Below, piece after piece: positions 1 to 64,000 of a stretch of DNA of 64,000 nt; position 1 is the stretch's first letter; every line of letters begins with the position of its first letter. The notes beneath the pieces were generated by a model that saw only the letters and a program-made list of their open reading frames with translations, did no database searches and was not told the DNA's origin. The stretch is from the NCBI RefSeq assembly GCF_006716675.1, contig NZ_VFPM01000002.1, positions 1 through 64,000 on the forward strand, given 5' to 3'. This DNA is from Humibacillus xanthopallidus (GTDB taxonomy: Bacteria > Actinomycetota > Actinomycetes > Actinomycetales > Dermatophilaceae). Made by a program: the position numbers and the translations under genes.

Positions 1-703
1 GTCGTCGGGCAGGACGATGCCGATGTTGGTCAGCGCCGGCTCGACGAGGATCGCCGCGACGTCGCCGTGGGCGAGGGCGCGCTCGAGCGCTCGAGGTCGT
101 TGAACTCGACGACACGGGTCGTCTCCGAGGTCGGCACCGGGGCGCCGATGTTGCTCGGCCGGTCGACGGTCGAGCCGCCTCGCCCAGCGTCGCGAAGGCC
201 TCGTCGACCGAGCCGTGGTAGCACCAGTTGTGCACCACGACCTTGGGCGGCCGGTGAGAAGGCGGGCGTAGCGGATCGCGTGCCGGTTGGCGTCGGTCGC
301 GGTGAGGGTGAACTGCCAGTAGGGCAGACCGAAGCGCTCGGCGAGACCGGTCGAGACCGCGATGGCGTCCTCGGTCGGCAGCATCGTCGTGATGCCTCGG
401 GAGAGCTGCCGGGTCACCGCGTCGACGGTCGCGGCGGGGGAGTGGCCCATCATCGCGCCGGTGTCGCCGAGGCAGAGGTCGACGTGGTCGATGCCGTCGA
501 CGCAGGTGAAGTGGGCCCCGGCCGCGCTCTCGACGAAGACCGGGAAGTCGCCCGGCCACTTGACCATCCAGCTCATCGGGACGCCGGGGCATGTGGGCCC
601 GCGCGCGCTCTGCCAGCTCGCGGGAGCGGGGACGGGCGGCGGTGAAGGCGGCACGCTCGCGCTCGTGGAGCCGGGCCAGGCGGGATCGGTCGAGGGAGGT
701 CAT
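1..703 (-). pseudogene. Class III aminotransferase, partial and frameshifted
   Basis: PLP-dependent class III aminotransferase (acetylornithine/GABA/GSA-aminomutase superfamily), N-terminal part only; it runs off the left edge. It starts at ATG 703 (MTSLDRSRLARLHERERAAF). Recognisable stretches such as DGIDHVDLCLGDTGAMMGHS, PKVVVHNWCYHGSVDEAF and EPALTNIGIVLPDD lie in different frames. Adding or removing single bases, mainly in C or G runs near 577, 252, 190 and 95, restores one reading frame. It is divergent from a gamma-glutamylputrescine-oxidase-like FAD gene, so a role in amine or polyamine catabolism is plausible (inference). The family call is firm, the substrate unknown. Frameshifts are more likely sequencing errors than true decay because the neighbours show the same kind. 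Confidence 0.7.
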
Positions 704-780
704 GCCGGCATCCTGCCCCGGCGGCGGCTTCCGCGGAAGGGGTATGGGGAATGCCGTTCACCTTCGGAATCCGTAGGCAA

Positions 781-795
781 TGGAACCGCATTCCA
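781..795. promoter_or_regulatory. Possible operator between divergent amine-catabolism genes
   Basis: The 152-bp gap between the divergent aminotransferase and FAD-oxidase starts holds a small inverted repeat, TGGAA-CCGCA-TTCCA. Further GGAAT words lie nearby at about 749 and 766. A shared operator would fit the divergent arrangement, but only symmetry supports it. Confidence 0.25.
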
Positions 796-855
796 CCGAA
801 AAGTGTGTGCTGCCCCCACCTTCACCACGACAGGCAGGCGGTGCATACTGCCCGC

Positions 856-2221
856 ATGCCTGCGAGCGGATACCGAAGCCTGAGTCTGTGGCACGACACG
901 ATGGACGACGACTTCACCCCCGACCGGGGCTCGATCGCGACGTCGAGGTCGACGTCGCGATCGTGGGGGCGGGCTACACCGGGCTGTGGACGGCATACAC
1001 CTCGTGCGCCGACCCGACGGTCCGCGTCGCCGTCATCGAGCGCGAGATCGCGGGCTTCGGTGCCTCGGGGCGCAACGTGGCTGGTGCTCGGCGCTCTTCC
1101 CGGCGTCGCTCCAGCGGATGGCGAGCGAGCGCGGACGCGACGCTGCCGTGCGGATGCAGCACCAGCTGCACGCACGGTGGCCTCCGTCGGCGCCATCGCC
1201 GGAGGAGGGCATCGACTGCCACTTCGACCAGGGTGGCTACCTCTCGGTGGCACGCAACCCCGCCCAGCTCGAGCGGGTGCGGGCGGAGGTCGCCGACTTC
1301 CACGCCTGGGGGTTCGGGCCGGACGACCACCGGTCCGCCCACGAGGTGGCCGAGTTCGCGCAGGTCTCCGACGCGCTCGGCGGCTCGTGGACGCCGCACT
1401 GCGCGGCGATCCACCCCGCGCGGCTCGTGCGTGGGCTCGCGGCCGTCGAGCGACGCGGCGTCACGATCTACGAGCGCACCTCGGCCGTCGACGTGGGCAG
1501 CCGGCGCGTCGTCACCCGCACGGCACCGTGCGGGCCGAGCACGTCGTGCTCGCCACCGAGGGCTACACGCCGACGGTCGCGGGCCGCCGGCGGGCGATCG
1601 CCCCGGTCTACTCGCTCATGACGGCGACCGAGCCGCTGGGCGACGACATCTGGCAGCAGATCGGCCTCGAGCGCCGCACGACGTTCGCCGACAACCGGCA
1701 CCTCGTCGTCTACGGTCAGCGCACCCGCGACGGACGCATCGCCTTCGGTGGGCGCGGGGCCCCCTACCATACGCGTCGCGGCTCTCGTCGGCGTACGAGC
1801 GCGACGAACGCGTGCACGCGATGCTGCGGCGGATCCTCGTCGAGCTCTTTCCGGTGCTGCGCGACGTCGCCTTCACCCACGCCTGGGGTGGCAACCTCGG
1901 CGTGCCGCGCGACTGGTTCCCGTCGGTGCGTCACGACAAGCACACGGGGCTGGCCTTCGCCGGGGCTACGTCGGTGACGGCGTGGCGACCTCCGCGCTCG
2001 CGGGCCGCACGCTCGCGGCGATGATCAGCGGCGACGACCCCGACGACCTCGCCTCGCTGCCCTGGGCCGGGCGGACGTCGCGGGCCTGGGAGCCGGAGCC
2101 GCTGCGCTGGCTCGGTGTCAACGCCGTCACCGCCCTCATGACCTCGGCCGACTGGTCGGAGCGACGCACCGGCCGCAGCTCGCGCGCCGCCTCGGCCTTC
2201 TGGACGGCGATGGGCCAGTAG
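856..2221 (+). pseudogene. FAD-dependent amine oxidase/oxidoreductase (DAO family), frameshifted
   Basis: FAD-binding DAO-family oxidoreductase similar to gamma-glutamylputrescine oxidase. It begins at ATG 856 and stops at TAG 2219-2221. The dinucleotide-binding motif [18 protein letters not shown] and the following FGASGRN are visible, as are [20 protein letters not shown] and the C-terminal [17 protein letters not shown] and [20 protein letters not shown]. These pieces lie in three frames. At least six single-base losses explain it, near 925 (C run), 1079 (G), 1180-1200, 1525 (C run), 1770 and 1965 (G run). An intact paralogue of the same family lies at 50206-51624. The shape of the protein is otherwise full length. 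Confidence 0.75.
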
Positions 2222-2361: not shown

Positions 2362-3212
2362 TCAGGCCGGGCGGAAGGCCCCGTCGCGCAGGACCGGGAC
2401 GGCGGTCGACGCATCGAGCTCGGCCGCGATCCTGACGTCGTCGGGCCAGCCCTGGGCCACGAGCTCGCGCCCGCTCGCCGACCTCTCCAAGGCCGCGGGC
2501 ACGTCGTCCTCGACGGTGAGCCAGGCCGCCAGCGCGGCGCTCGCCTCGGGGCTGAGAAGCAGGGGGCCGGCCTGGTGCTCGAGCCGCTCGACGAGCGAGG
2601 CGACGAATGCGCCTGCGCCCCAGAGGTCTTCGACTGCAGGGCGCAGCGACCCATCCGGCCAGCGCTCTCCCGCCGGCACGACGACGACAGCCGGCTGTCG
2701 ACCTCGGGCCGCCACCATCTTGCCCACGACCCACCGTGCGGCAGCCGCCCGGTTGCGCAGCGACACCGCGACGACGTCGGCACCCGCGTCGGCGAGCTGG
2801 TGACTGATCGTCGAGCCGTTCGGTGACGGCAGGACGAGAGCGCTCACCCCCGACGCCTCACGAATCGACTTGGGAGACAGGCTGATCGGCGGTATGCCGT
2901 CCGGCTGGCCACCAGCCGAGGCCTTGCGTGACGCTGACCTCGGCACCGCGAGCCGCGCCCCGAGCCGCTCGGCGTGCGCGACGGCCGAGTCGTCCTTCCA
3001 GCGGTAGGGGTGCACGGGATGGCGGCGTCCGCCGCCACCGAGACGCAGGTCGTGAAGCTCAGCACGTCGATGACGACGGCGGTGACGGCGGCGCGGGACG
3101 CGACGGCATACCGCGTCAGGGCCTCGGCGCCCGTTGGACCCCACTCGAGGCGCACGACGTGGCCGTCCTGGCTGTGCCACGGCGGAGCCGGGCGCGCGAC
3201 CCCGTCGCTCAC
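2362..3212 (-). pseudogene. 2-phosphosulfolactate phosphatase family (ComB-like), one frameshift
   Basis: ComB-family protein (2-phosphosulfolactate phosphatase fold). The N-terminal part contains VVIDVLSFTTCVSVAADA, with the conserved D-V-L-S-F region. After a one-base gap near 3020 the frame continues with HPYRWKDDSAVAHAERLGAR and LVLPSPNGSTISHQLADAGA, the family's SPNGS motif. GTG 3212 is chosen because it overlaps the upstream YjbR stop by 4 bp (GTGA). Adding one base gives an uninterrupted 283-residue protein, close to family length. Coenzyme M synthesis is not expected in an actinobacterium, so the real substrate is unknown. Last gene of a four-gene overlapping operon. Confidence 0.7.
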
Positions 3213-4360: not shown

Positions 4361-5240
4361 GGTCCTGCACCTACCCGCGGGCCGCGTTCTCCCCGCATCG
4401 GGTCATCTGCGTCACGCACCCGCGCGATGACCGCCCTCGCGCACTCGCGCGGCCGCCGCTCGGGCAGCCAGTGGTTGGTCGTCGAGCTCGACGAACGTGT
4501 AGGGGCCGGTCACGTGCTCGCGGGTCAGCTCGGCCGCAGTCCTGCCGAGGGCGGAGTCCGCGGAGCCCCAGACGAAGGTGGCCGGCACCGACACCGGTGG
4601 GCGGGCACGTGCGAGGAGGCGGTGGCGCGGTACCAGCCGATCGGCCCGGCGAGCGCGTCCGCGTGGGCGAGGTGGGCGGCATACCGCTCGGCGTCCTCGA
4701 GGGGCATGCCGGTGCGCACGACGATGGAGTGGAAGAGGGCGGCGACGACCCGCTCGGGCACCCACGGCACCTGGAAGGCCGCCATGTACCACGACTTGAG
4801 CTGCTGCCCTCGGTCCGACCTCAGTGCACGCGAGAGGGCGGCGGGGTGGGGTGTCGAGAGTGCCGTGACCGTCGCGACGCGGTCGGGGTGGTTGGCCGCC
4901 AGCAGCCAGCGACGGCGCCGCCAGTCGTGCCCGACGACGTGCGCGCGCGAGACCCCGGCGGCGTCGAGCAGGGCGAGCACGTCGGCGAGCAGCTCCTCGA
5001 GGCGGTATGCCGCCGGCCGGGTGGGCGCGCGCGCGCGCCGCGCTGTAGCGCGCGCTGTGCGTGGAGGTGCGAGGGTGCGAGACCGGGTCGTGGAGCAGCG
5101 GTGCGATGCGGTGCCAGCAGGTGCGATCGGGGGGAAGCCGTGCAGCAGCACGCCGTCTCGCCCCCGACCGGCCCTCGTCGTCGACCTCGAAGGTGAGGCG
5201 CGCGGGTGAAGGAGTGCAGTCGCGCCGGGTCGTCAGCCAT
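4357..5240 (-). pseudogene. Alpha/beta hydrolase, multiple frameshifts
   Basis: Alpha/beta-hydrolase (haloalkane dehalogenase/epoxide hydrolase-like). The oxyanion-region motif LLHGFPP, the nucleophile elbow region AHVVGHDW, ATVTALSTPHPAALSRAL and the C-terminal VPATFVWGSADSALGRTAAE are present but spread over three frames. The usual catalytic-His region reads HWLPERRPRECARAVIARVR in a further frame near 4470-4400. At least four single-base changes between about 4480 and 5160 are needed. ATG 5240 (MADDPARLHSF) is the likely start. First gene of the leftward operon; its repaired stop overlaps the FrnE start by 4 bp. Confidence 0.65.
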
Positions 5241-7095: not shown

Positions 7096-7695
7096 GTGCC
7101 GGTGCAGCGTTTCCACGGACAGATCGCCGGCATCGGCTCGGCGTCGGGCACCCGTGTCGTCGTCGGGTCGTGGCACCGGACCCCGCTGGGGTCCTTCGGT
7201 GACGCCATGGTCGAGACGGCGTCGGGCCACCGGGTTCTCGTCGCGCCGAGCCCCGAGGTGGCGGCCTTCATCGAGGCGACCTACGCCTTCGACGAGGTGC
7301 GTCTCGAGCCGGTCACCGTGACCTCCGCGGAGCACGGGTGGCATGTCGAGTCGCCGTCGCTCCTGCTCGACCTGAGCGTCGGGGGGCGTATGCCGCTCGG
7401 CCGGCTCCTGCGGCTCGTGCCGTCCCGCATCGCCACGAGCCGGGCATGGGCAACCGCCGTTGATCCGTTCGCACGGGTTGCCCTGCGCGGCGTGCGAACT
7501 CGAGGAACCGCCCTCGAGGGCCGGCGGGAGTACTACGGGGCGACCGACCTCCACGCCGTCACCAGCCTCGTCGGCTCGTTCGACGGGGAGCCGCTCGGAG
7601 CGCTCGCCCCGGTGGACCCGCCGTGCCGGTTCGGATTCTCGTCCACGCCGACGCGGCCGTCGGTGACGGCGGTCGTCACGACGGTGGTCACCTAG
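7096..7695 (+). CDS. Conserved hypothetical protein
   Basis: An intact 199-residue ORF starting at GTG 7096 with no signal peptide, membrane segment or Cys pair. It has a central hydrophobic beta-rich region (VETASGHRVLVAPSPEVAAF, then SPSLLLDLSVGG) and a Thr/Val-rich C-terminus. I do not recognise a domain with confidence. It is one of two genes (with the zinc-ribbon gene) in the first 9 kb with no obvious frameshift, although its low-complexity end would hide one. It follows the membrane hydrolase by 33 bp in the same direction and could share its transcript. Confidence 0.55.
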   Translation: MPVQRFHGQIAGIGSASGTRVVVGSWHRTPLGSFGDAMVETASGHRVLVAPSPEVAAFIEATYAFDEVRLEPVTVTSAEHGWHVESPSLLLDLSVGGRMPLGRLLRLVPSRIATSRAWATAVDPFARVALRGVRTRGTALEGRREYYGATDLHAVTSLVGSFDGEPLGALAPVDPPCRFGFSSTPTRPSVTAVVTTVVT

Positions 7696-8039: not shown

Positions 8040-8962
8040 TCACATCCGGGCGCAAGCCTGCAACAGGGCTGATGCTGAGATCTCACTGGATGCCGGCTGG
8101 ATGGCGAGCTCGCGCACCGCGGCGACGAAGACGGCACACCGGGCAGGCAGGTCGAGGCGTGGCCACGGGTCGCTGTCGTGGGGGATGCCCGGGCCGCCGG
8201 CGGCGCGGTACGCGTCGATGAAGGTGCCCCAGTCCTCGTCGTCGAGCAGCCCCGCGGCCCAGAAGCCGGCCGGCCGGCCGAGGTCCCATGCGGGGTCCCC
8301 GAGCCCGACGTCGTCGATGTCGAGCAACCGCCAGCCGTCGCCGTCGTGCGCCAGCTGGCCGAGGTGCCAGTCGCCGTGGACCAGCGACCCGCGGCGTGAG
8401 TCTCCGGGCTGCGCGCCATCCCTGCGCTGCGCCACCAGCTGTGCTGCCAGCTGTGCTGCCAGCGGTGCGCCCACCGTCGACAGCAGGTGCCGGACGTCGT
8501 CACCGATGCCTAGGTCGGCGACCCGCGCCAGCGCTCGGTCGACCCTGTCGCCCCCGCCGTGCGCGCCGAGCCGTGCGGTCACCGCGTCCACCGGCGTGCG
8601 GTGCAGGCGGGCGAGGAGTTCGCCGGCCGCCGCCCACGGCAGATCGCCGTCGTCCGGACCCAGCACGTCGACGCGGGCCAGGCCGTGACGAGACGGCCGC
8701 TCGCCGGGTCCGTCACAGGCCTGCTCGACAACGGGGGCACGACGAGACCACGGGCAGCCAGCTGCCCCGAGGCCGCGAGCCGACGTGACAGGGCGGCGGC
8801 ATCCGTCCGCAGGTGGTGGACCTTCACGACGACGTCCCCGACGTGGACGACGAGCGCACCGGACGGGGTGTGGACCCGTCGGACCGGCGACCCGTCGCGG
8901 ACCCCGCGGCTCAGCCTGGCGGCATACGCCCTGAGCCACGCGTCGGAGGGTTCGGCCGTCAC
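8040..8962 (-). pseudogene. Aminoglycoside-phosphotransferase-like kinase, one frameshift
   Basis: APH/choline-kinase-fold phosphotransferase (PF01636 type). The N-lobe (SGALVVHVGDVVVKVHHL, the Lys of the ATP site) and the catalytic loop SLVHGDWHLGQLAHD followed by WRLLDIDDVGLGDPAWDL are clear. One C is missing in a C run near 8674 (frame passes from GRLVTAWP to RVDVLGPDDGDLPW); adding it gives exactly 307 residues. GTG 8962 overlaps the epimerase stop by 4 bp. The small-molecule substrate cannot be told; resistance is not implied. Confidence 0.75.
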
Positions 8963-10860: not shown

Positions 10861-12662
<1,802 letters not shown>

Positions 12663-12669: not shown

Positions 12670-13515
12670 GTGACACCGACCGCGCCCGTGGCCCGCCGCC
12701 TCGAGATCGCCCGTCGCGCAGCGCGCGCCTACCGGGCCGACGCCGCCGTCGCCGCCGTCCTCGTCGCCGGCTCGGTCGCTCGCGGCCTCGCCGACGACGC
12801 CTCGGACGTCGAGCTCGACGTCTACTGGTCGCGGCCACCGAGCATCCGGCAGAGACGCGCCGCCGTCGAGGGAGCCGGCTGGCAACGGGTCTACGCCGAG
12901 GAGGACGAGCACGAGTGGGCCGACGGGCTCATGGTCGACGGCGTCAAGATCGATGTCAGCGGTTTCGTGACGACGACGATCGACGACTACCTCGACCGGG
13001 CCGCCCGCGGCGACACGGAGGCCGAGCTCCAGGTGCGCATCACTGCCCTGCTCGACGGAGTCACCCTGCACGGCGAGCCGGTCCTCGACGCCTGGCGCTC
13101 GCGGTGCCGGCCCTACCCCGAGCCGCTCGCGCGGGCCATGGTCGAGCAGGGCCTCGACCTGCGCCCGCAGGAGCGACTCGAGATGCTCGCCGCCCGTGAC
13201 GACGTCGTGCTCCTCCACCGTGACCTCGTCGACGGTGTGCAGGGCGTGCTCGACGCCCTCTTCGGCGCCAACCGGGTCTACGCGCCCCACCCTTTCCACA
13301 AGTGGCTCACGTGGGAGGCCACCCTGCTGGCCCAGCGCCCCGACGATCTCGAGGAGCGCATCCGGTCCCTCCTCGCTGCGACGCCGGCCGAGGCCGCAGC
13401 GATGATGGGGGCCCTCGTCCACGACACCTTCGAGCTCGCGGAGCGGCTCGTTCCCGGCGCCGACCTCGGGCCTCTGCGGGCGGCATACGACCTGCGGCGC
13501 GTGACCGGCAGCTAG
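12670..13515 (+). CDS. Nucleotidyltransferase-fold protein
   Basis: A 281-residue protein with an N-terminal minimal nucleotidyltransferase motif, VLVAGSVARGLADDASDVEL, the GS-x9-DxD signature, with further Asp in VDGVKIDVSGF. The rest is helical and resembles aminoglycoside-adenylyltransferase-like or DUF4037-like proteins that act on small molecules; which one is not clear. GTG 12670 (VTPTAPVARRLEIARR) is chosen since it starts just after the PhoD stop; an earlier in-frame start would overlap PhoD by about 90 bp. Third gene of the operon. Confidence 0.75.
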   Translation: MTPTAPVARRLEIARRAARAYRADAAVAAVLVAGSVARGLADDASDVELDVYWSRPPSIRQRRAAVEGAGWQRVYAEEDEHEWADGLMVDGVKIDVSGFVTTTIDDYLDRAARGDTEAELQVRITALLDGVTLHGEPVLDAWRSRCRPYPEPLARAMVEQGLDLRPQERLEMLAARDDVVLLHRDLVDGVQGVLDALFGANRVYAPHPFHKWLTWEATLLAQRPDDLEERIRSLLAATPAEAAAMMGALVHDTFELAERLVPGADLGPLRAAYDLRRVTGS

Positions 13516-13522: not shown

Positions 13523-14722
13523 TCACGAGGCGGAGGGGGCGCGCCGCCACCGGTTGGGCGCGGCCGGCACAGCAGGTATGCCGTGTGGCTCCTCGAGCGC
13601 CTCGGGCTCGTCACGCTCGAGGGCGTTCTCGGGGTCGAGGGGGCTGAGGCTGCCGAGGCTCTCAGCGACGACGACGGCGTCGTCACCGGGCCTCAGGCGG
13701 AAGTCGGTCTTGGGGTTGGTGACGGTCATGCCGTCGCGCACGACGGCGAGCAGCGTGGCCTCGTGCTCCTGGCGGAGCCGGGCCGAGAGCTCGTCGGTCG
13801 TGAGGTCGACGTAGTCGTCGGGCAGAGCGACCCGGTAGAGCTCCGAGCCGTCGCCCCCCGAGACGATGTCGGTGACGAGCTCGGCGAGGCCCGGGTAGAG
13901 CGCCGAGCGTGCGAGCAGCCGCGAGGCGAGGGTCGAGGTCACGAGGATCTCGTCGGCGTGGGCGCGCTCGAAGTGCTCGACGTGCTTGGGGTTGTTGACC
14001 TCGACGACCGTGCGCACCGCGGGGGCCAGCGACTCGATGGCGAGCACGGCGAGGATCGAGCGCATGTCGGCCTCGTTGCTGCCGTCCGCCGGGAAGACGA
14101 TGGCGGCACTGGCCTGCTCGATGCCCGCGCGCTCGAGGTCGTGGGCGTTCGTCACGTCGCCGCGCACGAAGTAGACGCCCATCCCGGCCGGGTTGGACTC
14201 GGCGTCGTGGACGAGCACGATCTTCGAGGTGAACTCGTCGCCCCGCAGCTCCTCGATGAGCTCGCGCGCGGTGGCGTTCCAGCCGCACACGACGATGTGG
14301 TTCTCGTAGCCGGCAGCACCCATGCCCTGGCCCTCCTTGAGCAGGTAGTCGATGACGAAGCCGACGAGGGCCGCCGTGAGCGCGGCGACGATCGCCACGC
14401 CGAAGAAGGCGAGCAGCCAGCCGATGACGAAGCCCGGCGCCGAGTTCACGTAGCTCGGGTCGCCCGAGCCGATGACGGTGGTCACCGCCCAGTAGAAGGA
14501 GTCGCCGAGGCCGTGGAGCGAGCGCTTCTCGACCTCGAAGACCGTGACGAGGAACGCCGCGACGAAGACGAACGCGATGACGGCCAGCAGCAGGGTGCGG
14601 AAGAAGTGGAGGTCGACGTCGCCGCTGATCCGCCTGAGGTGGAAGGTGATCCGCTTGACGATCGGCAGCGCGGTGAGGGGTCGGAAGGGCGCGGCGACAA
14701 CCCGCTTCACCGCTGCACGCAT
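13523..14722 (-). CDS. RCK-coupled ion channel with atypical filter
   Basis: A 399-residue two-TM ion channel with a cytosolic TrkA-N (RCK) domain. TM1 is about residues 43-62, the pore helix and filter region about 75-88, TM2 about 95-120. The RCK starts at HIVVCGWNATARELIEEL (Rossmann GxxxxxxxL type) and a TrkA-C-like part follows (YVDLTTDELSARLRQEHEAT). The filter reads TVIGSGDP instead of the potassium signature TVGYGD, so ion selectivity is uncertain. ATG 14722 is preferred; longer starts would add a basic stretch. The 294-bp upstream gap holds only GC-rich direct repeats of GTGCCGG type and no gene. Confidence 0.85.
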   Translation of the reverse strand: MRAAVKRVVAAPFRPLTALPIVKRITFHLRRISGDVDLHFFRTLLLAVIAFVFVAAFLVTVFEVEKRSLHGLGDSFYWAVTTVIGSGDPSYVNSAPGFVIGWLLAFFGVAIVAALTAALVGFVIDYLLKEGQGMGAAGYENHIVVCGWNATARELIEELRGDEFTSKIVLVHDAESNPAGMGVYFVRGDVTNAHDLERAGIEQASAAIVFPADGSNEADMRSILAVLAIESLAPAVRTVVEVNNPKHVEHFERAHADEILVTSTLASRLLARSALYPGLAELVTDIVSGGDGSELYRVALPDDYVDLTTDELSARLRQEHEATLLAVVRDGMTVTNPKTDFRLRPGDDAVVVAESLGSLSPLDPENALERDEPEALEEPHGIPAVPAAPNRWRRAPSAS

Positions 14723-15603: not shown

Positions 15604-17513
<1,910 letters not shown>

Positions 17514-18304: not shown

Positions 18305-19330
18305 GTGGCTAGTCAGGACTGGTTCGAGAAGGACTTCTACGCCACCCTCGGCGTGCCCCAGGACGCCGACGCGGCGGTGATCAAGAAGGCCTACCGCAAG
18401 CTCGCCCGTGACCTGCACCCCGACCACAACGTCGGCAACACCCAGGCCGAGGAGCGCTTCAAGGAGATCGGCGAGGCGTATGCCGTGCTCTCCGACCCCG
18501 AGCAGCGTCGCGAGTACGACGCGGTCCGTGCCATGTCGCACGGCGGCGCGCGCTTCACCGCGGGCGGGCCCGGCGGTGGCGGCGCCGGCTTCGAAGACAT
18601 CTTCTCCGCGTTCGGCGGGCCGGGTGGCCCCGGAGGGGGCGGCCAGCGCGTGCGCTTCGACACGACCGGTGGCGGGCAGCCCAACATCGAGGACCTCCTC
18701 GGTCAGATGTTCGGCGGCAGTGCCGGCGGCTTCGGCGGCCGCCAGGGCTACGGCGGCTTCGGCTCCACGGCCGGGCCCCGGCCGGGCGCCGACGTGCAGG
18801 CGAGCACGAGCATCGGCTTCCGCGACGCCGTCGAGGGCTCGACCGTCACCCTCACCTCGCCCGACCTCGGCCGCATCACGGCCCGCATCCCTCCGGGCGT
18901 CAAGGACGGCCAGCGGATCCGCTTGCGCGGCAAGGGTCGTCAGGGTGACCCCGGCGCTGCGCCCGGCGACCTCATCCTCACGGTGACCGTCGGCAAGCAC
19001 CCCGTCTTCGGGCGTGACGGCGACAACCTGACGATCGACCTGCCCGTCACCTTCGCCGAGGCCGCGCTGGGCGCGACCGTGTCGGTGCCGACGCTCGATG
19101 GCGGGTCGGTCAAGGTCAAGGTCGCCCCCGGCACCCCGAGCGGCCGCGTGCTGCGGCTCAAGGGCCGTGGCGTGACGCGCGGCGACCACAAGGGCGACCT
19201 GCTCGCGAAGGTCCAGGTCGTCGTGCCGCAGCGGCTCACCGACGAGGCCCGAGAGGCGATCGAGAAGATGGCAGCGGCCGAGGACGGCCACGACCCGCGG
19301 GCCGAGCTCTTCCAGCGGGCCCGGGCCTGA
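18305..19330 (+). CDS. dnaJ: DnaJ-type co-chaperone lacking zinc finger
   Basis: A 341-residue Hsp40. The J domain (residues about 9-75) has the HPD motif in [14 protein letters not shown] Gly/Phe-rich linker follows, then C-terminal substrate domains ([49 protein letters not shown]). There is no cysteine zinc-finger, so it is a type II (CbpA-like) DnaJ, as in the DnaJ of other actinobacterial HspR operons. GTG 18305 has a near-perfect Shine-Dalgarno, AAGGAGGT. The 104-bp gap from grpE holds no gene. Confidence 0.95.
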
Positions 19331-19368
19331 CGGCATACGGCAGCAACCCGCCGGCACAGCGAAGGACG

Positions 19369-40514: not shown

Positions 40515-40618
40515 CGTGACCTCCGATCCACCCCCGGTACTTTTCCTGCCGTTCCAGTGTGCGCCGGTCGGGGGGCGCGGGGAGGGCAATCCGGCGAAGC
40601 CGACCGGACGGCATACGG

Positions 40619-41518: not shown

Positions 41519-41866
41519 GATCAACAGGGTAAGCGGTGCGGCCCGCTCAGCCGGAATCGTCCGCACGGCCCACAGCGAGGTCTCAGGTTCGTATCGGAAC
41601 CGACGAGATGGTTCCAAACGGTGCAGGTCGCCCCTCACGATGGTCGTGGGAGCACGGGGGGAGGACCGACCCGGCTCCGGTCTCGGGGACGCGACCTCGG
41701 TCGCGACGCAGCCGGCCTCCCCCCACCATCCCGGCCGTATTAAGCCATGTCAGTAGCGCGCGCACGTCCCACGCACGACTGACGGGTCTGGCGAGACGGC
41801 ATACCGCAGGCTCGCAGACTGTGCACGTCGACAGCCCGGCTCTAGCGCCTCGTCAGCCGAGCCCGC
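41519..41866. other. Gene-free interval
   Basis: A 348-bp gap between the DedA start and the stop of the small membrane protein. I see no convincing ORF or RNA. It holds one CGGCATAC word (41797-41804), a GACGAGATGGTTCC stretch and several GC-rich direct repeats. It probably carries the DedA promoter. Confidence 0.5.
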
Positions 41867-46857: not shown

Positions 46858-46911
46858 CCGGATCGAGGTGATCCTGACACCCAGGTGGGTGCCAGGATCA
46901 CCTCGATCCGG
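46858..46911. terminator. Long perfect hairpin between convergent genes
   Basis: A perfect 19-bp inverted repeat, CCGGATCGAGGTGATCCTG (46858-46876) and CAGGATCACCTCGATCCGG (46893-46911), with an inner CACCC-AGGT-GGGTG stem. The stem continues to about 24 bp in all. It sits between the ends of the citrate synthase and matrixin genes, so a bidirectional terminator is likely. It immediately joins a GTATGCCG word. Confidence 0.8.
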
Positions 46912-46928
46912 TATGCCGTGGGGCGGGC

Positions 46929-48855: not shown

Positions 48856-49983
48856 ATGAGTGTGAGTGCTGCCGCCCTCGACGTCACGACGATGCGCGAC
48901 CGGCTCGACCGACTGCGCGCCCGGGCCGCCGACGCCGGGGTCGTGGCCGTCGTCATCACGCCGGGGTCGGACCTGCGCTACCTCCTCGGGGTCGGCGGCT
49001 CCTCCTTCGAGCGGCTGACGGCGTTCGTCGTGCCGACCGACCGGGCGGTCGCCCCCGTCCTCGTGTCTCCCGCTCTCGAGTTCGCCGGGCTCGGGCACCT
49101 TCCGCTCGAGGCCGTTGGGGTCGAGGTGCGCACGTGGGTCGACGGGGAGGACGCCCACGCTCTCGCTCTCGCGGGCCTCGCTGCCGGCCCCGTCGCGGTC
49201 TCCGACATGACGCCCGCCCTGCACCTGCTTCAGCTGCGCGACGCGGGTGCCACCGAGCAGCGCCTCGCCGGCCCGGTCCTGCGCGAGCTGCGCATGCGCA
49301 AGGACCCCGTCGAGCTCGCCGAGCTGAGAGCCGCGGGCGCAGCCATCGACCGCGTCCACGCCCGCGTCGGGGAGTGGTTGCGTCCGGGGCGCACCGAGGC
49401 GCAGGTGGCTGCGGACATCGCCGCTGCCATCGTCGAGGAGGGCCACGCCGCAGCCGATTTCGTGATCGTGGGCTCCGGGCCGAACGGCGCCAGCCCGCAC
49501 CACTCCGTCAGCGAGCGCGTCATCGAGCGAGGTGACGTCGTCGTCGTCGACATCGGTGGCCCGCTGCCCTCGGGCTACAACTCTGACAGCACCCGCACGT
49601 ATGCAGTGGGCGCGCCCCGCGAGCCCGACGTCGCCGAGGCGTATGCCGCGTTGCAAGCCGCCCAGCAAGCCGCCGTCGATGCCGTGCGTCGCGGGGTGAC
49701 GTGCGAATCGGTCGATGCCGCAGCGAGATCCGTGCTCGAGGAGGCTGGCCTTGCTCATCACTTCATCCACCGCACGGGTCACGGCATCGGCCTGGACGTG
49801 CACGAGGAGCCCTACATCGTCACCGGCAACGACCTCGTGCTCGAGCCGGGGATGACCTTCTCGATCGAGCCCGGTGTCTACCTGGCCGGGCGGTGGGGCG
49901 CCCGCATCGAGGACATCGTCGCGGTGACGTCCGACGGTGTGGAGCGCTACAACACCCGTCCCCACGACCTCGCCATCCTCTAG
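48856..49983 (+). CDS. M24-family Xaa-Pro aminopeptidase
   Basis: A 375-residue pita-bread-fold peptidase. The creatinase-like N-domain covers about residues 12-135. Metal ligands: DVVVVDIGGPLPSGYNSD (Asp), STRTYAVG (Asp-Ser-Thr-Arg type), HRTGHGIGLDVHEEPYI (His), MTFSIEPGVYLAG (Glu) and WGARIEDIVAV (Glu). Complete site. ATG 48856 follows the divergent amidotransferase start by 67 bp. Cytoplasmic peptide turnover. Confidence 0.92.
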   Translation: MSVSAAALDVTTMRDRLDRLRARAADAGVVAVVITPGSDLRYLLGVGGSSFERLTAFVVPTDRAVAPVLVSPALEFAGLGHLPLEAVGVEVRTWVDGEDAHALALAGLAAGPVAVSDMTPALHLLQLRDAGATEQRLAGPVLRELRMRKDPVELAELRAAGAAIDRVHARVGEWLRPGRTEAQVAADIAAAIVEEGHAAADFVIVGSGPNGASPHHSVSERVIERGDVVVVDIGGPLPSGYNSDSTRTYAVGAPREPDVAEAYAALQAAQQAAVDAVRRGVTCESVDAAARSVLEEAGLAHHFIHRTGHGIGLDVHEEPYIVTGNDLVLEPGMTFSIEPGVYLAGRWGARIEDIVAVTSDGVERYNTRPHDLAIL

Positions 49984-50205: not shown

Positions 50206-51624
50206 TCAGGAGTCGAAGCCGACGCCGATCGTGTCGAGAGCCTTGAGCCACAGGTTGCGCTTGCCGGTGCGGTCCTCGGCAGCCAGCGCCGACCGCGTCG
50301 CCCGCACGGCGGCATACCGGATCGGCTCGGGAGGGAAGGGGATCGGCTTGCGCCGCACCATCTGGAGCCGGGTCGCCTCGGTGTCACGGCCGTCGACGAG
50401 GTCGAGCGCGACCCGCGCGCCGAAGCGGGTCGACGCGACGCCGAGCCCGGTGTAGCCGACGGCATACGCCATGCGACCGCCGAGCGCGGTGCCGAAGACC
50501 GGCGTGAAGCGCGACGTCGTGTCGATGACGCCGGCCCAGCGGTGGGTGAACCGGATGCCGTCGAGTTGGGGGAAGATGTCGACGAAGTGGTCGGCGAGCA
50601 GTCCGTGAGAGGCGTCCGACTGCTCGAGCGCGGGGTCGATGCGCCCCGGGAAGTGGTAGTTCGCGTCATAGCCCCCGAAGAGCACGCGGTCGTCGAGCGT
50701 CCTTCGGTAGTAATGGAACTGGTTGCCGGCATCGGTCAGCCCCTCGCGCCCCTTCCAGCCGACGGCGTCGAGCTGCGCAGGGGTCAGCGGCTCCGTCATG
50801 AGGACATGGTCGTAGACGGGCAGCACCCAGGCGCTGAACCTCTTGAGCACGCCGCGGGCGGCGTTGGTGCCGATGACGACGCGTCGCGCGTGCACGCTGC
50901 CGTCCTCGAGCGAGACGCGCACACCGTCGCCCTCGGCGTCGAATCCCGTTGCGCGCGTGTACTCGTGGATCCTCACACCCAGCGACTCGGCCGCTCGAGC
51001 GAGGCCCCACACGAGGCGGGCGGGGTCGACGAGGCCGACCTCCGGGTCGAACATCCCCGCGCGGTAGAGCGGCGAGTCCACCCGCGAGCGCGCGCCCGCG
51101 GCGTCGAGCAGCTCGACGTCGTAGCCGTGGGCCCGGTGCAGCTCGAAGGCCTCGCGGACGGTGGGCACCTGGTGGTCGGTCAGGGCGAGGGTCAGCTCGC
51201 CGGGCACGTGGAAGTCGGCGTCGATGCCGTATGCCGTCAGCGTCCTCCCGATGGCCGCGAAGTTCTCCGCCGCGAGCCGCTCGAGGGTGTCGATCTCGTC
51301 GGGCCAGCAGCCGAGCCCCTGCGACAGGCCGTGGGTCAGGCTCGGAGCGACGAAGCCCCCGTTGCGACCGGACGCGCCGTCGGCCAGCCGGTCGGCCTCG
51401 ACGACGACGACGTCGCGGGAGGGGTCGTCCTCCTTCGCCTGGATCGCCGTCCACAGCCCGGTGAAGCCGCCGCCGACGACGAGCAGGTCGGTGCGCGAGG
51501 CGAGGCCGGTGAGCGGCGGTCGCGGTTCGGGCCGCTCGGCCCGGTCGGTCCAGAACGGGGTGGGAGCGGCGTCGGCGAGGGCGCGCGCGGCGCGGGGGCT
51601 GAGGGCGGCGGGTCGGTTGCTCAT
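50206..51624 (-). CDS. FAD-dependent oxidoreductase (DAO family)
   Basis: A 472-residue FAD enzyme, like gamma-glutamylputrescine oxidase. Rossmann motif DLLVVGGGFTGLWTAIQAKE, then ADGASGRNGGFVAPSL, and the C-terminal FTHRWAGVIDTTSRFTPVFG and MAYAVGYTGLGVASTRFGAR for flavin and substrate. Paralogue of the broken gene at 856-2221. ATG 51624. Divergent from the GNAT gene; the 140-bp gap has repeated CGAAAC words at about 51655, 51683, 51696 and 51719, perhaps operators. Confidence 0.88.
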   Translation of the reverse strand: MSNRPAALSPRAARALADAAPTPFWTDRAERPEPRPPLTGLASRTDLLVVGGGFTGLWTAIQAKEDDPSRDVVVVEADRLADGASGRNGGFVAPSLTHGLSQGLGCWPDEIDTLERLAAENFAAIGRTLTAYGIDADFHVPGELTLALTDHQVPTVREAFELHRAHGYDVELLDAAGARSRVDSPLYRAGMFDPEVGLVDPARLVWGLARAAESLGVRIHEYTRATGFDAEGDGVRVSLEDGSVHARRVVIGTNAARGVLKRFSAWVLPVYDHVLMTEPLTPAQLDAVGWKGREGLTDAGNQFHYYRRTLDDRVLFGGYDANYHFPGRIDPALEQSDASHGLLADHFVDIFPQLDGIRFTHRWAGVIDTTSRFTPVFGTALGGRMAYAVGYTGLGVASTRFGARVALDLVDGRDTEATRLQMVRRKPIPFPPEPIRYAAVRATRSALAAEDRTGKRNLWLKALDTIGVGFDS

Positions 51625-53517: not shown

Positions 53518-53676
53518 TCGCCGGAGACCGCGACCGGACGCACGATCCTCCCGGTCTCGGGAAACCACGCGGGATGGCGCGCGGGACAGCACGCGGACAG
53601 GCATATGACCGCGACGGCATACATGGCAGGATCGTTGGCGGATCGTGAACCCGCTCATTCGACAGCAGGAGTAGCA

Positions 53677-54701
<1,025 letters not shown>

Positions 54702-55109: not shown

Positions 55110-55151
55110 CCCGCCGTTTCGCACCCACCCGACCGGACGGCATACGCCCGC

Positions 55152-56064: not shown

Positions 56065-57414
<1,350 letters not shown>

Positions 57415-57468: not shown

Positions 57469-59265
57469 ATGACTGACAACGTCGTCGAGCAGAAGGTCGA
57501 GCTCGACTGGGTCACCCGTCTCGCCGACGAGGTCGTCGCCGAGGCGCAGCGCCGCGGCGTCGACGGGCCGATCGTGTGCGCGTCGGGCATCAGCCCCTCG
57601 GGCCCGATCCACCTCGGCAACTTCCGCGAGCTCATCACGCCGCACCTCGTCGCCGACGAGATCAAGCGCCGCGGCGTCGACTGCGAGCACATCCTCAGCT
57701 GGGACGACTTCGACCGCTTCCGTCGCGTGCCGAAGAACCTTGCAGGCGTTGACGATTCGTGGGAGCAGTACATCGGTATGCCGCTCACCTCCGTACCGCC
57801 GCCGGCACGCTCGCCGCACGCGAGCTGGGCCGACCACTTCAAGGCACCGCTCATCGAGGCCATGGAGGCCACCGGCATCGAGGTGCGCCAGATCAGCCAG
57901 ACCGAGCAGTACCGCGCCGGCGTCTATCGCGACCAGGTGTTGCTCGCGATGCGTGAGCGCTTCGCCATCGACAAGGTGCTCGACCAGTACCGCACCCTCG
58001 AGGCCGCTGAGAACGCGCGGCAGAAGGCGACCGGCAAGGGCAAGGGCGCCGGTCCCGGCGGCGGCAAGGGACCGAAGCTCACCGAGGAGCAGGCTGCTGC
58101 GGCGACCGAGGCCGAGCGGGGGTCGGGCGCGGCGAGCGAGGACGACGGCAGCGAGGGCAAGGCGGGCTACTACCCGTACAAGCCCTTCTGCACCGCGTGC
58201 GGCACCGACTTCACGACCGTCACCGCCTATGACGACGACAGCCACGAGCTGACCTACGACTGCACCCGGTGCGGTCACAGCGAGACCGTCGACCTGGACA
58301 CCTTCACGAACGGCAAGCTGGTCTGGAAGGTCGACTGGCCGATGCGCTGGGCGCACGAACACGTCCTGTTCGAGCCGTCCGGCGTCGACCATCAGAGCCC
58401 CGGCAGCAGCTTCGTCGTCGGCAAGGACCTCGCCCCGATCTTCGGCTGGGAGCGCCCGGTCGGACCGATGTATGCCTTCGTGGGCATCGCCGGCATGGCG
58501 AAGATGAGCTCGAGCAAGGGTGGGGTCCCGATCCCGACCGACGCGCTCGAGGTCATGGAGGCTCCGGTGCTGCGCTGGCTCTATGCCCGCCGGCGGCCCA
58601 ACCAGAGCTTCGACGTCGCCTTCGGTCCCGAGCTGCAGCGCCTCTACGACGAGTGGGATGCCTTGAACCGCAAGGTCGCCGACGGGTCGGCCCAGCCGGG
58701 AGATCTCGCCGCGCACCTGCGGGCGACCTCGACCGCATCGGGTGCGCTGCCGGCGACGCCGCGGCCGATGCCCTTCCGGACGATCGCCTCGGTCATCGAC
58801 GTGACGCAGGGTGACGAGGAGCAGGCCGTGCGCATCCTCAGCGACCTCGACCCCGACAACCCGGTCACCTCGACCGACGACCTGCGCCCGCGCCTCGACT
58901 GTGCCGAGCGCTGGATGCTCGGCTACGTACCGGCCGAGGACCGCACCATCGTGCGCACCGAGCCCGACGCGGAGCTGCTCGGCAGCCTCGACGAGCAGCA
59001 GCGCGAGTCGCTCCGGCTGCTCGCCGAGGGGCTCGACGAGCACTGGTCGCTCGACGGTCTGACCCACCTCGTCTACGGTGTGCCGAAGATCCAGCGCGGG
59101 CTCGACCCCGAGGCCAAGGTCAAGGACCCCGAGCTGTCGGCGGCGCAGCGCGCGTTCTTCGTGCTCGTCTACCGGCTGCTCGTGTCCAAGGACACCGGCC
59201 CGCGCCTGCCGACGCTCCTGCTCGCGGTCGGAGCCGACCGCGTGCGCAGCCTCATCGGCCACTGA
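57469..59265 (+). CDS. lysK: Class I lysyl-tRNA synthetase
   Basis: A 598-residue class I LysRS. The HIGH-type motif is in SGISPSGPIHLGNFRELIT (about residue 44-51) and KMSKS-type in GMAKMSSSKGGVP (about 344). Two CxxC zinc knuckles (FCTACGTDF and DCTRCGHSE, about 242 and 266) follow a Gly/Lys/Ala-rich insert (about 185-230), which makes the protein longer than most. The enzyme charges tRNA-Lys; most bacteria use an unrelated class II enzyme. ATG 57469. It follows purA by 54 bp. Confidence 0.93.
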   Translation: MTDNVVEQKVELDWVTRLADEVVAEAQRRGVDGPIVCASGISPSGPIHLGNFRELITPHLVADEIKRRGVDCEHILSWDDFDRFRRVPKNLAGVDDSWEQYIGMPLTSVPPPARSPHASWADHFKAPLIEAMEATGIEVRQISQTEQYRAGVYRDQVLLAMRERFAIDKVLDQYRTLEAAENARQKATGKGKGAGPGGGKGPKLTEEQAAAATEAERGSGAASEDDGSEGKAGYYPYKPFCTACGTDFTTVTAYDDDSHELTYDCTRCGHSETVDLDTFTNGKLVWKVDWPMRWAHEHVLFEPSGVDHQSPGSSFVVGKDLAPIFGWERPVGPMYAFVGIAGMAKMSSSKGGVPIPTDALEVMEAPVLRWLYARRRPNQSFDVAFGPELQRLYDEWDALNRKVADGSAQPGDLAAHLRATSTASGALPATPRPMPFRTIASVIDVTQGDEEQAVRILSDLDPDNPVTSTDDLRPRLDCAERWMLGYVPAEDRTIVRTEPDAELLGSLDEQQRESLRLLAEGLDEHWSLDGLTHLVYGVPKIQRGLDPEAKVKDPELSAAQRAFFVLVYRLLVSKDTGPRLPTLLLAVGADRVRSLIGH

Positions 59266-59339: not shown

Positions 59340-59365
59340 CTCGATCAGGGGAAGCGCGGCATACG

Positions 59366-61381: not shown

Positions 61382-61428
61382 CGGGCGAGGGGCGAGACCC
61401 TGGGGGGGTGAGTCTCGTCCCTCGCCCG
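61382..61428. terminator. Hairpin downstream of the helicase gene
   Basis: Arms CGGGCGAGGGGCGAGAC (61382-61398) and GTCTCGTCCCTCGCCCG (61412-61428) with one mismatch and a 13-base loop containing seven G. Possible terminator for the leftward helicase, though 160 bp past its stop. Confidence 0.55.
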
Positions 61429-61588
61429 AGCGCGTCCTCATTGGGGGGCGGGACTGCGCCGGACGCCGACTGGGTCTGGGGGGATAGACCGGCGGGGAGG
61501 GTGATTTCGCACTGCCGTCGACGTCTTGACCATCATTGCGTGTGCCGGGGGGCGACACTGACCACATCGACATTCCTTGAACAAGTCT

Positions 61589-63970
61589 TTACCTTGCTCT
61601 GGCGAACTCTTGCTCCTGCGCCGAGAGCACCGTCATGCGGTGGGCCGCGCGGGTCAGGGCCACGTAGAGGACGCGCACCCCGCCGGGCGACTCGCGCACG
61701 ATCTCGCGAGGGTCGACGACCACCGTCGCGTCGTACTCGAGGCCCTTCGTCGACATCGGGTCGACGACCTGGACACGCCCGTCGACACCGTCGTGGGCGA
61801 GCTCTGACAGAGGTGCGAGCCGGGCGGCATACGACGACGGCGTGATGACCGCGACGGACCCGTCGACCTCGCCGAGCAGGTGCAGGACGGCCTCCCGCAC
61901 CGAGCCCATGGGGTCCTCCCCGAGCGAGCCCTCGACCGGGTGGATGCCGGTCTCGCGCACCGCCTGCGGGATGTCGGCGTCGGGCACCTCGCGGCGCACG
62001 ACCTCGGCGGCGTAGTCGAAGATCTCGCGCGCGTTGCGGTAGTTCGTGTCCATGTGGAAGAGCTGGCGAACCTGACGGCCGTAGGCCTCCTCGCGCGCCG
62101 TCGTCGCCTCGTCGGGGTCGGGCCACGACGCCTGCGCCGCGTCGCCGACGACGGTCCACGACGCGGTGCGCCCCCGCAGGCCGATCATCCGCCACTGCAT
62201 GGGGGAGAGGTCCTGCGCCTCGTCGACGAGCACGTGGGCGTAGTCGTCGGGCTTGCCGATGCGTCCGGCGAGCAGGCGCTCGCGCGGGTCGGCCGAGCGC
62301 GTGTGCGACGTGTCCTCGCGCTCCGGCCGGTTGACCGGCTGCACCTCGGTGACGCCGTACTGCGTGAGGTCGTCGAACTCCTCGATCTCGTAGAAGCCGC
62401 GCTCCTCGGCCTCCTTCTCCTTGACCGGGCCGACGCGCCCGGCGAGGTCGTCGACGAGCGCCACGTCGGCCACCGACCACGTGCCGGTCTCGAGGGCCGT
62501 CGTGAACGAGCCGGCGAGCAGCTCGGCGTCGGCGGGGGAGAACGCGCCGCGTGCGTGACGACGCACGAGCTCGGGGTCGGCGAGCCAGAGCAGCACCTCG
62601 CGCGGGTCGACCTGCGGCCACCACTGCTCCATGAAGGACTCGACGTCGAGGTGGTCCTCCCACTTGTCGATGAACTCGGCCTTGGCGTCGCGCTCACCGG
62701 TCACCCCGAGGCTCGCCCACGCGGCCTCGCCGAGCGCGGCCTGGGCGACCGCGGTCGCGGCGTTGCGCTGGTGCTGGCGCAGCACCTGCGAGCGCACCCG
62801 GTCGAGCGCCCGGGCCTCGAGGCGCACGGCGCGCCCCGCGACCATGACCCTCAGCTCCGTCGGGGCGCCGGGCACGCGACCGCGCGCAGCGGCAGACAGC
62901 AGCGGGCGGATCCGCGTGGAGCCCTTGAGGCGCGCGACCTCCGGCGGGTCGAGCCGCTCCGCGTGCATGGCGTCGATGACGTCACCGAGCGCACGGAGGG
63001 TGACGCTGTCCTCGCCGAGTGACGGCAGCACGCGCTCGATGTAGGCCGTGTAGGCGCCGGAGGGGCCGACGACGAGGATGCCGCCCGACTCGAAGCGTCG
63101 CCGCTCGGAGTAGAGCAGGTATGCCGCGCGGTGGAGTGCGACGACCGTCTTGCCGGTGCCCGGGCCCCCGGTGATCTCGGTGACCCCGCGCGCGCTGGCG
63201 CGGATGGCCTCGTCCTGGTGCGCCTGGATCGTGGCGACGATGTCGCGCATGCGCTCACCGCGAGTGCGGGTCAGCGCCGCCATGAGGGCGCCGTCGCCGA
63301 CGATGACGAGGTCGTCGGGCGGCTCGGGCACCATGAGGTCGTCCTCGATGCCGATGACCGTGGCTCCGCGGCTGCGCAGCACCCGCCGCCGCAGCACTCC
63401 CATGGGCTGCGCCGGTGTCGCGCGGTAGAAGGCGGAGGCCGCGGGGGCGCGCCAGTCGATGACGAGGGGCTCGTAGTCGTCGTCGCGGACCCCGAGACGG
63501 CCGATGTAGCGCACCTCGCGGTCGTCGGGGCGGGCCTGCCGCTCGCCGCTGCCGTTGGCTCCGCCCGCGTCGTCGGTCCCGCCGGCGTCTTCGGTCCCGG
63601 CGGCCCCGCCGCTCCCACCGTGGCCGTTCGCGCGGGCCGCCGCCTCGCGCAGCATGGCGTGGTCGAGGTCGAGGCGACCGAAGACGAGACCTTCGTACTG
63701 GGTGTCGAGGGCCGTGCGCCGCTTGGCGGCGTGGAACATCAGGGCGTCGCGCTCGAAGAGGCCGGCCGCCTCCTCCATGCCGACCTCCGCGGACTTGGCG
63801 ATGTGGCCCCGGGCCAGGCCCTCGGCCTGCACGACGTCGGCGCGGTGGCCGGCCTTCTCGAGCTCCTCGTGGACCCGGTCGACGTGGGCCTGCTCGACGG
63901 CGATCTCGCTCGCGACGTCGTCGGTCACGTGTACGCCGCCGCGTCGCGACGGCGTGCCAGCAGGGGTCAC
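61589..63970 (-). CDS. HelD-like UvrD/Rep-superfamily helicase
   Basis: A helicase of about 790 residues related to HelD/HelR, which strip or recycle RNA polymerase. An N-terminal coiled-coil arm (AVEQAHVDRVHEELEKAGHR) precedes the helicase core: Walker A ITGGPGTGKTVVALHRAAYL (about residue 268), Walker B HVLVDEAQDLSPMQWRMIGL, motif QVVDPMSTKGLEYDATVVVD, and ALTRAAHRMTVLSAQEQ at the end. A Gly/Ala-rich insert lies near residues 110-150. GTG 63970 is used, but GTG 63928 is also possible and the frame is open to the window edge, so the true start may lie outside. Confidence 0.88.
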   Translation of the reverse strand: MTPAGTPSRRGGVHVTDDVASEIAVEQAHVDRVHEELEKAGHRADVVQAEGLARGHIAKSAEVGMEEAAGLFERDALMFHAAKRRTALDTQYEGLVFGRLDLDHAMLREAAARANGHGGSGGAAGTEDAGGTDDAGGANGSGERQARPDDREVRYIGRLGVRDDDYEPLVIDWRAPAASAFYRATPAQPMGVLRRRVLRSRGATVIGIEDDLMVPEPPDDLVIVGDGALMAALTRTRGERMRDIVATIQAHQDEAIRASARGVTEITGGPGTGKTVVALHRAAYLLYSERRRFESGGILVVGPSGAYTAYIERVLPSLGEDSVTLRALGDVIDAMHAERLDPPEVARLKGSTRIRPLLSAAARGRVPGAPTELRVMVAGRAVRLEARALDRVRSQVLRQHQRNAATAVAQAALGEAAWASLGVTGERDAKAEFIDKWEDHLDVESFMEQWWPQVDPREVLLWLADPELVRRHARGAFSPADAELLAGSFTTALETGTWSVADVALVDDLAGRVGPVKEKEAEERGFYEIEEFDDLTQYGVTEVQPVNRPEREDTSHTRSADPRERLLAGRIGKPDDYAHVLVDEAQDLSPMQWRMIGLRGRTASWTVVGDAAQASWPDPDEATTAREEAYGRQVRQLFHMDTNYRNAREIFDYAAEVVRREVPDADIPQAVRETGIHPVEGSLGEDPMGSVREAVLHLLGEVDGSVAVITPSSYAARLAPLSELAHDGVDGRVQVVDPMSTKGLEYDATVVVDPREIVRESPGGVRVLYVALTRAAHRMTVLSAQEQEFARAR

Positions 63971-64000
63971 GGTGCGGGGCTCGCCGGTCGTGGTCGACCG

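Follow-up and report, generated by a model that had tools for sequence, protein, structure and literature searches.

Strong sequence preference during DNA uptake is reported from two bacterial families, both of them Gram-negative (PMC7811141, PMC5031613). The DNA uptake sequence (DUS) of the Neisseriaceae, 5'-ATGCCGTCTGAA-3' together with its dialects (PMC3630211), is present in thousands of exact copies, forms foldable inverted pairs, changes at a few positions between relatives and occurs as two dialects within some genomes. The uptake signal sequence (USS) of the Pasteurellaceae, 5'-AAGTGCGGT-3' (PMC5031613), consists of a short core with weaker flanks; recently acquired segments and coding DNA are poor in it, and molecular drive is invoked for its spread (PMC7811141). 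The window analysed here, a 64,000-nucleotide stretch of Humibacillus xanthopallidus (positions 1 to 64,000 of contig NZ_VFPM01000002.1), is scattered with exact copies of an octamer, GTATGCCG, that is like both systems in these respects. The octamer, referred to as the word, probably works like a DNA uptake sequence in a Gram-positive, Tad-pilus setting.

The support for this reading consists of the copy excess, the 8-bp core, conservation between two species, scarcity in atypical DNA, limitation to one family within the order, variant words in relatives and the presence of machinery genes. In copy number, use of both strands, codon cost, conservation, scarcity in atypical DNA, hairpin pairs, dialects that differ by small steps and genomes with two words, it resembles the uptake sequences described for the Neisseriaceae and Pasteurellaceae, and it is read as one on these grounds. 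Unlike the Neisseriaceae DUS, it has a different core, its one-mismatch forms are weakly enriched, and its hosts are Gram-positive actinobacteria with Tad/Flp-type pilus genes, 179 of the 186 family genomes giving no PilM match. To our knowledge, no ComP-like receptor is known for the family of GTATGCCG, unlike the Neisseriaceae. The DUS letters ATGCCGTC in ATGCCGTCTGAA (PMC5031613) are also contained in the extended motif GTATGCCGTC found here, a likeness that is probably due to chance because phyla and machinery differ. The Pasteurellaceae USS is unrelated in sequence and machinery, and its spacing is relatively even (PMC7811141), whereas that of GTATGCCG is random.

Abundance, core and genomic context of the word

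In the labels used here, G denotes genomes, g genera, L sampled stretches or loci and C contigs. G000 is the genome holding the window (5.27 Mb in six contigs), and its 464-kb sample comprises the window and 20 stretches of 20 kb. An exact match search finds 41 copies of GTATGCCG in the window, 21 on the forward strand and 20 on the reverse strand as CGGCATAC (Table 1). A first-pass annotation of the window had counted 39 copies (20 versus 19); the over-representation and the strand balance that it described hold, all 20 coordinates that it gave are real, and its exact figure is corrected to 41. Across 100 dinucleotide shuffles of the window the word turns up 0.77 times on average and three times at most. 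The word is the top-scoring 8-mer both in the window (41 versus 1.25 under an order-2 Markov model) and in the 464-kb sample (239 versus 12.9 at order 3 and 9.9 at order 2), which places it far from the Markov expectation at which the annotation's reading would have failed. The whole genome contains 2,908 copies, 1458 forward and 1450 reverse; the control, made by reversing the letters without complementing them, reaches 217/189. Exact copies in the hundreds to thousands, far over expectation, are a trait shared with DUS and USS.

The core of the word is narrow, at 8 bp. Measured against the order-2 model in 464 kb, 13 of the 24 one-mismatch neighbours do not exceed expectation, and 18 in all stay under 1.3-fold; the remaining six range from 1.5 to 4.1-fold, and in these the altered letter is one of the first two or the last. 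The one-mismatch form GGATGCCG occurs 87 times versus 46 in this sample, and the two highest forms rest on few copies (ATATGCCG, 6 versus 2.2; TTATGCCG, 3 versus 0.7). The flanks are weaker than the core, with a preceding C or G and a following T or C. The intergenic consensus is longer, GTATGCCGtccGGC, and 14 of 63 intergenic copies run on into the tail TCCGG.

Gene predictions come from a crude caller of our own and seem untrustworthy over the first 10 kb of the window. Coding DNA of G000 (stretches L099-L102 included, L017 excluded) contains 186 copies versus 12.6 expected from a synonymous-codon shuffle, making GTATGCCG the top word, and 66 further copies are intergenic. The caller treats L017 itself (G000:C4:1-20000) as a single open frame across all 20 kb, suggesting a giant gene. 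The 180 genic copies in the 464-kb sample are mostly found in two frames (146 copies), Tyr-Ala (TAT GCC) with 100 and Ala-Tyr (GCA TAC) with 46, and the other four frames account for 34. The word contains 100 of the 264 TAT codons and 13 of the 34 ATA codons of the sample; these codons are not equally common outside it, in line with the rare-codon load noticed at first pass. Outside predicted genes lie 59 of the 239 copies versus 37 expected (p = 0.0003, on the crude gene calls). Within the window this applies to 13 of 41 copies by the same caller, a larger share than the ‘about eight’ that had been placed in gaps.

A 60.9-kb portion of the window aligns to the congener G001 at 91.8% identity, and 33 of 40 GTATGCCG sites are intact there. 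Background conservation is lower: 8-mers with five G/C are intact in 61% of cases and one-mismatch neighbours in 25 of 52, the latter differing from the word with a Fisher p of 0.001. Selection on DNA rather than on protein, proposed at first pass, is supported by this conservation, the excess over the codon shuffle and the related words of relatives. No strand bias is seen across the 21 stretches (146 versus 127 copies, heterogeneity p = 0.998), and the near-equal genome-wide counts agree; occurrence in both orientations without replication bias is a further trait of DUS and USS. Even spacing is likewise not seen, the intervals being random over 144 kb (coefficient of variation 1.02).

Density varies with base composition. 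Over 50 bins of 10 kb, the number of copies correlates positively with both G+C (rho = 0.69, p = 3e-8) and codon adaptation (rho = 0.61); four bins contain no copy versus 0.31 expected. The word is scarce in low-G+C bins although it is itself G+C-poorer than the genome. Among 20 proteins from three poor stretches (L008, L002 and L014) are accessory-looking metabolic ones of the sugar-uptake, amylase, arabinose isomerase, P450, subtilase and PPK2 families; phage and transposase families are not found in this set. The poor stretches may represent acquired DNA, and under-representation in newly acquired DNA, here dependent on that putative status, is again a DUS and USS trait. In about 0.53 Mb, ten pairs of adjacent copies are at most 60 bp apart, seven inverted and three direct (a plain count). 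Five of the seven inverted pairs were folded; all five are intergenic and all form stem-loops (z-scores -3.0 to -9.7). Permissive positions, an intergenic surplus and inverted pairs able to fold are also traits of DUS and USS.

Related words and competence genes in the family

The family set comprises 186 genomes from 53 genera and the order draw 396 genomes, the order being the scope of the confinement test. Counts of GTATGCCG across the family are uneven: many genomes have 7 to about 110 copies, few have 140 to 320, and the rest have about 340 to 4,724. No enrichment is found in 362 genomes of 19 other families of the order, where the maximum is 180 copies in a genome that has 195 copies of the reversed control. 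Within the order, GTATGCCG is confined to one family. An alignment scan with the TadA of the cluster described below as tad-1, of which the best 80 loci (each at most 21 kb) were kept, supplies the named relatives: Terrabacter, Intrasporangium, Knoellia, Pedococcus, Phycicoccus, Ornithinimicrobium, Serinicoccus, Arsenicicoccus, Nostocoides and others. These we take to belong to the Dermatophilaceae/Intrasporangiaceae. The best named match among the 80 loci is Terrabacter aerolatus, at 93%.

Some of the genomes with few copies of GTATGCCG abound instead in a variant that differs from it by one or two letters, as judged in coding samples against the synonymous-codon shuffle. GGATGCCG is in excess in G034 (69 versus 13.2), G186 (41 versus 5.2) and G050 (31 versus 8.0), and GTACGCCG in G020 (43 versus 12.5), G032 (39 versus 9.8), G101 (39 versus 8.5) and G102 (36 versus 6.3). 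G026 has CGTAGACC (30 versus 7.6) and GTAGACCG (20 versus 3.8), and G041 has CGTATGCG (10 versus 0.6) and GTATGCGG (11 versus 1.5). Counts over whole genomes bear out GGATGCCG and GTACGCCG as dialects: GGATGCCG reaches 3,816 copies in G034, 3,838 in G035, 4,480 in G050, 3,619 in G051 and 3,949 in G186, with 241 to 1,336 in the remaining genomes save G052 and G053. These two carry two words, with 2,195 GGATGCCG and 1,217 GTATGCCG in G052 and 2,099 and 1,189, respectively, in G053. GTACGCCG numbers 1,125 to 4,185 in ten genomes and 33 to 1,011 in the others. The dialect words CGTAGACC, GTATGCG(G) and GAATGCCG are known from samples rather than from whole-genome counts; the last occurs 14 times versus 0.4 in a 15-kb locus of a Phycicoccus metagenome bin (L213), alongside four GTATGCCG. 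The word also changes inside genera: g21 (G025/G026), g30 (G050/G052) and g45 (G096/G097, modest in G096), and in Arsenicicoccus the A. piscis locus, probably from G026 itself, has CGTAGACC and the A. cauae locus GTATGCCG. Dialects among related species are a trait of DUS and USS.

Thresholds of 85, 450 and 300 copies per Mb for the three words, set by eye after viewing the distributions and applied to rounded genome sizes, are passed by 125 of the 186 genomes for at least one of GTATGCCG, GGATGCCG and GTACGCCG. Adding G026 and G041 through their sampled dialects gives 127 genomes and 38 of 53 genera with a word. In 20 to 60 kb samples of G002, G169, G007, G010, G019, G036, G038, G054, G028, G110, G107, G191, G082 and G123, no comparably dominant word is found. 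Replacement of one dialect by another at orthologous sites gives no signal among the few aligned sites.

Candidate machinery is present in G000. Its class B cluster, tadA-tadB-tadC-pilin-TadE-TadF-TadG, lies at C1:250.7-255.5 kb, a class A tad cluster with a DUF4244 mini-pilin lies near C1:1.027 Mb, and comEA-comEC is found in L101, with HHH_3 and SLBB domains in ComEA. Natural transformation of Micrococcus luteus requires the tad-1 and tad-2 clusters and comEC (PMC4322843). G000 shares with it the TadA-TadB-TadC-(pilin)-TadE-TadF-TadG order of a tad-1-like cluster, and it also has comEA-comEC and, away from the first cluster, a tad-2-like one that bears a mini-pilin. Class B is named tad-1 here because its N-termini, judged by eye, resemble the TadE/TadF of M. 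luteus as printed (PMC6370729). Three M. luteus papers searched for the term uptake sequence do not contain it.

TadE and TadF were searched in all 186 genomes, and the tad-1 TadA in 18. Twelve genomes, comprising all members of g7, g19, g27, g31 and g49, have neither TadE nor TadF and form the set judged to lack tad-1, defined as genomes from genera without any match to either pilin. Seven of the 12 were searched with the tad-1 TadA and show distant relatives alone, at 40% identity or less. None of the 12 genomes carries a word versus 127 of the 174 others, and at genus level the figures are 0 of 5 versus 38 of 48 (Fisher p = 0.001, a post hoc value that ignores shared ancestry). Four more genomes lack both pilins in the searches: G186 and the three fragmented drafts G043, G051 and G182, whose congeners do have pilins. 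These were counted as tad-1 holders because their congeners or a TadA match indicate so. Of other candidates, type IVa pili were rejected as the machinery, with a PilM match in 7 of 186 genomes, and T2SSE ATPases, present in 185 of 186, do not discriminate.

Several tad-1 loci are disrupted. In G186, tadC similarity ends at residue 265 of 325 (L179:3667-4566) and the 3,949 copies of GGATGCCG remain; TadE, TadF and TadG were not found after the truncated gene, nor were TadE and TadF in genome-wide searches. G105 retains a remnant of tadA, and GTATGCCG is not in excess there. In G096 (L158, L104), the cluster is split within tadC by about 38 kb of other DNA, and a large serine recombinase gene (L158:7531-8886) adjoins the break; a mobile element has probably inserted into this competence gene. 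Loss of the tad-1 pilins from G096 was refuted, as they are found about 39 kb away. G096 was also considered as a motif-free natural knockout, and the argument was dropped because the genome carries 1,463 GTACGCCG (318 per Mb), a modest excess.

The uptake reading and its rivals

An uptake signal had been listed first among the options at first pass. The codon-shuffle excess, the conservation, the lack of local strand bias and the related words all agree with it, and we infer from them that the word promotes DNA uptake. In the proposed mechanism, the competence machinery would favour GTATGCCG-bearing DNA on capture; the putative binder of the word is either ComEA or a component on the surface of the Tad-type competence pilus. 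DNA of kin would then be taken up more often, recombination would overwrite unmarked alleles with marked ones, and copies would build up by molecular drive wherever the protein code permits. A shift in receptor preference would lead to a genome being gradually rewritten in a new dialect.

A number of observations weigh against this picture. Known uptake sequences are reported to show a graded excess of mismatched forms (PMC1939737), whereas those of GTATGCCG are weakly enriched, and its copies lack the even spacing of the USS. Some of the word calls are themselves weak, the GTACGCCG excess being modest in the lower genomes called by threshold (G096, 31 versus 12.8 in 128 kb; G031, 11 versus 4.0). 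A single loss in a common ancestor may account for all five genera that lack tad-1. If pilin absence alone is the criterion, the set grows to 16 genomes, of which three (G051, G182 and G186) carry a word, versus 124 of 170 others (Fisher p = 3e-5). G123 has a complete tadA to tadG yet no word, and ten genera with tad-1 pass no word threshold, three of them (g41, g48 and g9) hinting at other words. Conversely, a word is kept at 994 to 3,949 copies where tad-1 is broken: in G086, G087 and G133, with tadA remnants alone, in G093, with a split tadA, and in G186, with a truncated tadC and no pilins found. These genomes could be explained by a putative gradual decay of the word once competence is gone. 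ComEC, present in 180 of 186 genomes with or without the word, does not discriminate. Distances of TadE, TadF and TadG, given the TadA-C distance, do not track the dialect (permutation p = 0.83, 0.29 and 0.29) in a label permutation over 325 locus pairs, from which wordless or doubtful loci were excluded and in which one genome is probably represented twice, as G026 and L208. Among the matches listed from open-licence literature, no paper treats competence in this family, and their titles and abstract starts contain no report of an uptake sequence in it; the matches listed for the octamer letters look unrelated by title. We know of no uptake assay for GTATGCCG.

Several other explanations account for part of the evidence. 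The word might be the site of a nucleoid-associated or organising protein that binds DNA all along the chromosome, with about 0.55 sites per kb under selection and dialects that follow changes in the protein. Its spread over the chromosome on both strands and its conservation between species suit such a protein, for which avoidance of atypical DNA is not obviously expected, the two coexisting words of G052 and G053 are not readily explained and a link to tad-1 is not predicted; we regard it as unlikely. A DNA methyltransferase target, or an epigenetic mark with a function, is quite improbable. The exact core and the word changes within the family could follow swaps of a specificity subunit, but GTATGCCG is neither a palindrome nor a bipartite Type I site, and a methylated target predicts neither scarcity in atypical DNA nor inverted hairpin pairs. 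Restriction targets are usually avoided rather than accumulated, which also counts against it. HIP1 of cyanobacteria (GCGATCGC) is a highly iterated palindromic octamer found through the chromosome. Both are iterated octamers; the HIP1-like option raised at first pass is excluded in its palindromic form because GTATGCCG is not its own reverse complement.

Signals of recombination or segregation such as Chi and the FtsK-orienting polar sequences (KOPS) are oriented along replication arms. They share with the word an exact octamer at high copy number through the chromosome, and they differ from it in orientation: no bias is seen within the 21 stretches or over the genome, which refutes the oriented form, agrees with the argument made against it at first pass and leaves such a signal very doubtful. 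The view that the word is a side effect of codon usage, dipeptide preference or mutational bias can draw on the Tyr-Ala frame of more than half of the genic copies. It is ruled out as far as codon and dipeptide artefacts go by the synonymous-codon shuffle (186 versus 12.6), and the 66 intergenic copies and the other G+C-rich family genomes without the word leave it with practically no standing.

Returning to the uptake sequence, we lean slightly towards a broader statement, that it may represent a third origin of sequence-specific uptake, in Gram-positive Tad-pilus actinobacteria. Most tad-1 lineages would then have a word of their own, with at least six GTATGCCG dialects besides the unrelated CGAAGGGG in Janibacter/Marihabitans and CGATGCGG in g9, and the dialects would be gene-exchange barriers between genera, with G052 and G053 standing between two. 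If this is true, a third family with uptake preference would be added, Gram-positive, with another pilus and with dialects across 38 of 53 genera. Comparative tests would then become possible for the long-standing problem of why uptake sequences evolve, be it through kin recognition, molecular drive or receptor mechanics. The third family would also predict which members transform naturally and with which DNA, offering a route to genetic tools.

Copies in the window and other iterated words

Table 1. Copies of GTATGCCG along the 64,000-nucleotide window; every row is one copy.
Position	Strand	Remark	Basis
991..998	-		exact match
2892..2899	+	followed by TCCGGC	exact match
3104..3111	-		exact match
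4677..4684	-		exact match
5005..5012	+		exact match
7388..7395	+		exact match
8920..8927	-		exact match
11069..11076	+		exact match
13481..13488	-		exact match
13576..13583	+	orthologous G001 site is GTATGGCG	exact match, G001 alignment
17358..17365	+		exact match
18478..18485	+		exact match
19331..19338	-	outside predicted genes	exact match, gene calls
23393..23400	+		exact match
26387..26394	+	outside predicted genes, not conserved in G001	exact match, gene calls, alignment
26573..26580	-		exact match
29052..29059	+	arm 1 of close inverted pair with 29103..29110	exact match
29103..29110	-	arm 2 of close inverted pair with 29052..29059	exact match
31286..31293	+		exact match
33583..33590	+		exact match
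33748..33755	-		exact match
36108..36115	-	not conserved in G001	exact match, alignment
36652..36659	+		exact match
37269..37276	+		exact match
37367..37374	-	G001 has GTACGCCG	exact match, alignment
40609..40616	-		exact match
41797..41804	-	outside predicted genes	exact match, gene calls
44742..44749	-		exact match
46911..46918	+	outside predicted genes	exact match, gene calls
49641..49648	+	not conserved in G001	exact match, alignment
50310..50317	-		exact match
50460..50467	-	G001 has GTACGCCG	exact match, alignment
51229..51236	+		exact match
53615..53622	-	outside predicted genes, not conserved in G001	exact match, gene calls, alignment
53700..53707	+		exact match
55138..55145	-		exact match
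56688..56695	+		exact match
57776..57783	+		exact match
59357..59364	-	outside predicted genes	exact match, gene calls
61825..61832	-		exact match
63119..63126	+		exact match

Five further sampled genomes hint at words other than those described above: CGAAGGGG in four of them, two from g41 and two from g48, and CGATGCGG in the fifth, from g9. The unrelated iterated word CGAAGGGG(G) occurs on both strands at up to about 1 per kb, and its hosts are Janibacter limosus, J. anophelis, Marihabitans asiaticum and members of g41/g48 (L202, L205, L224, G104, G105, G066, G067). It is found 35 times versus 5.3 in 40 kb of G104 (L169, L170) and is at most 1.8-fold enriched in samples of at least 28 kb from other genera. 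In G095 (L141, L142), CGATGCGG occurs 38 times versus 6.7 in coding DNA, with none in 3.2 kb of intergenic DNA, and is possibly a further dialect or a coding repeat. Strong local words are also seen in L209, L233 and L264: GTGTACCA in Nostocoides (12 versus 0.3), ACCTACAC in a Frankiaceae bin (9 versus 0.3) and ACAACCAC in Cellulomonas edaphi (10 versus 0.3), which are either local repeats or further iterated words.

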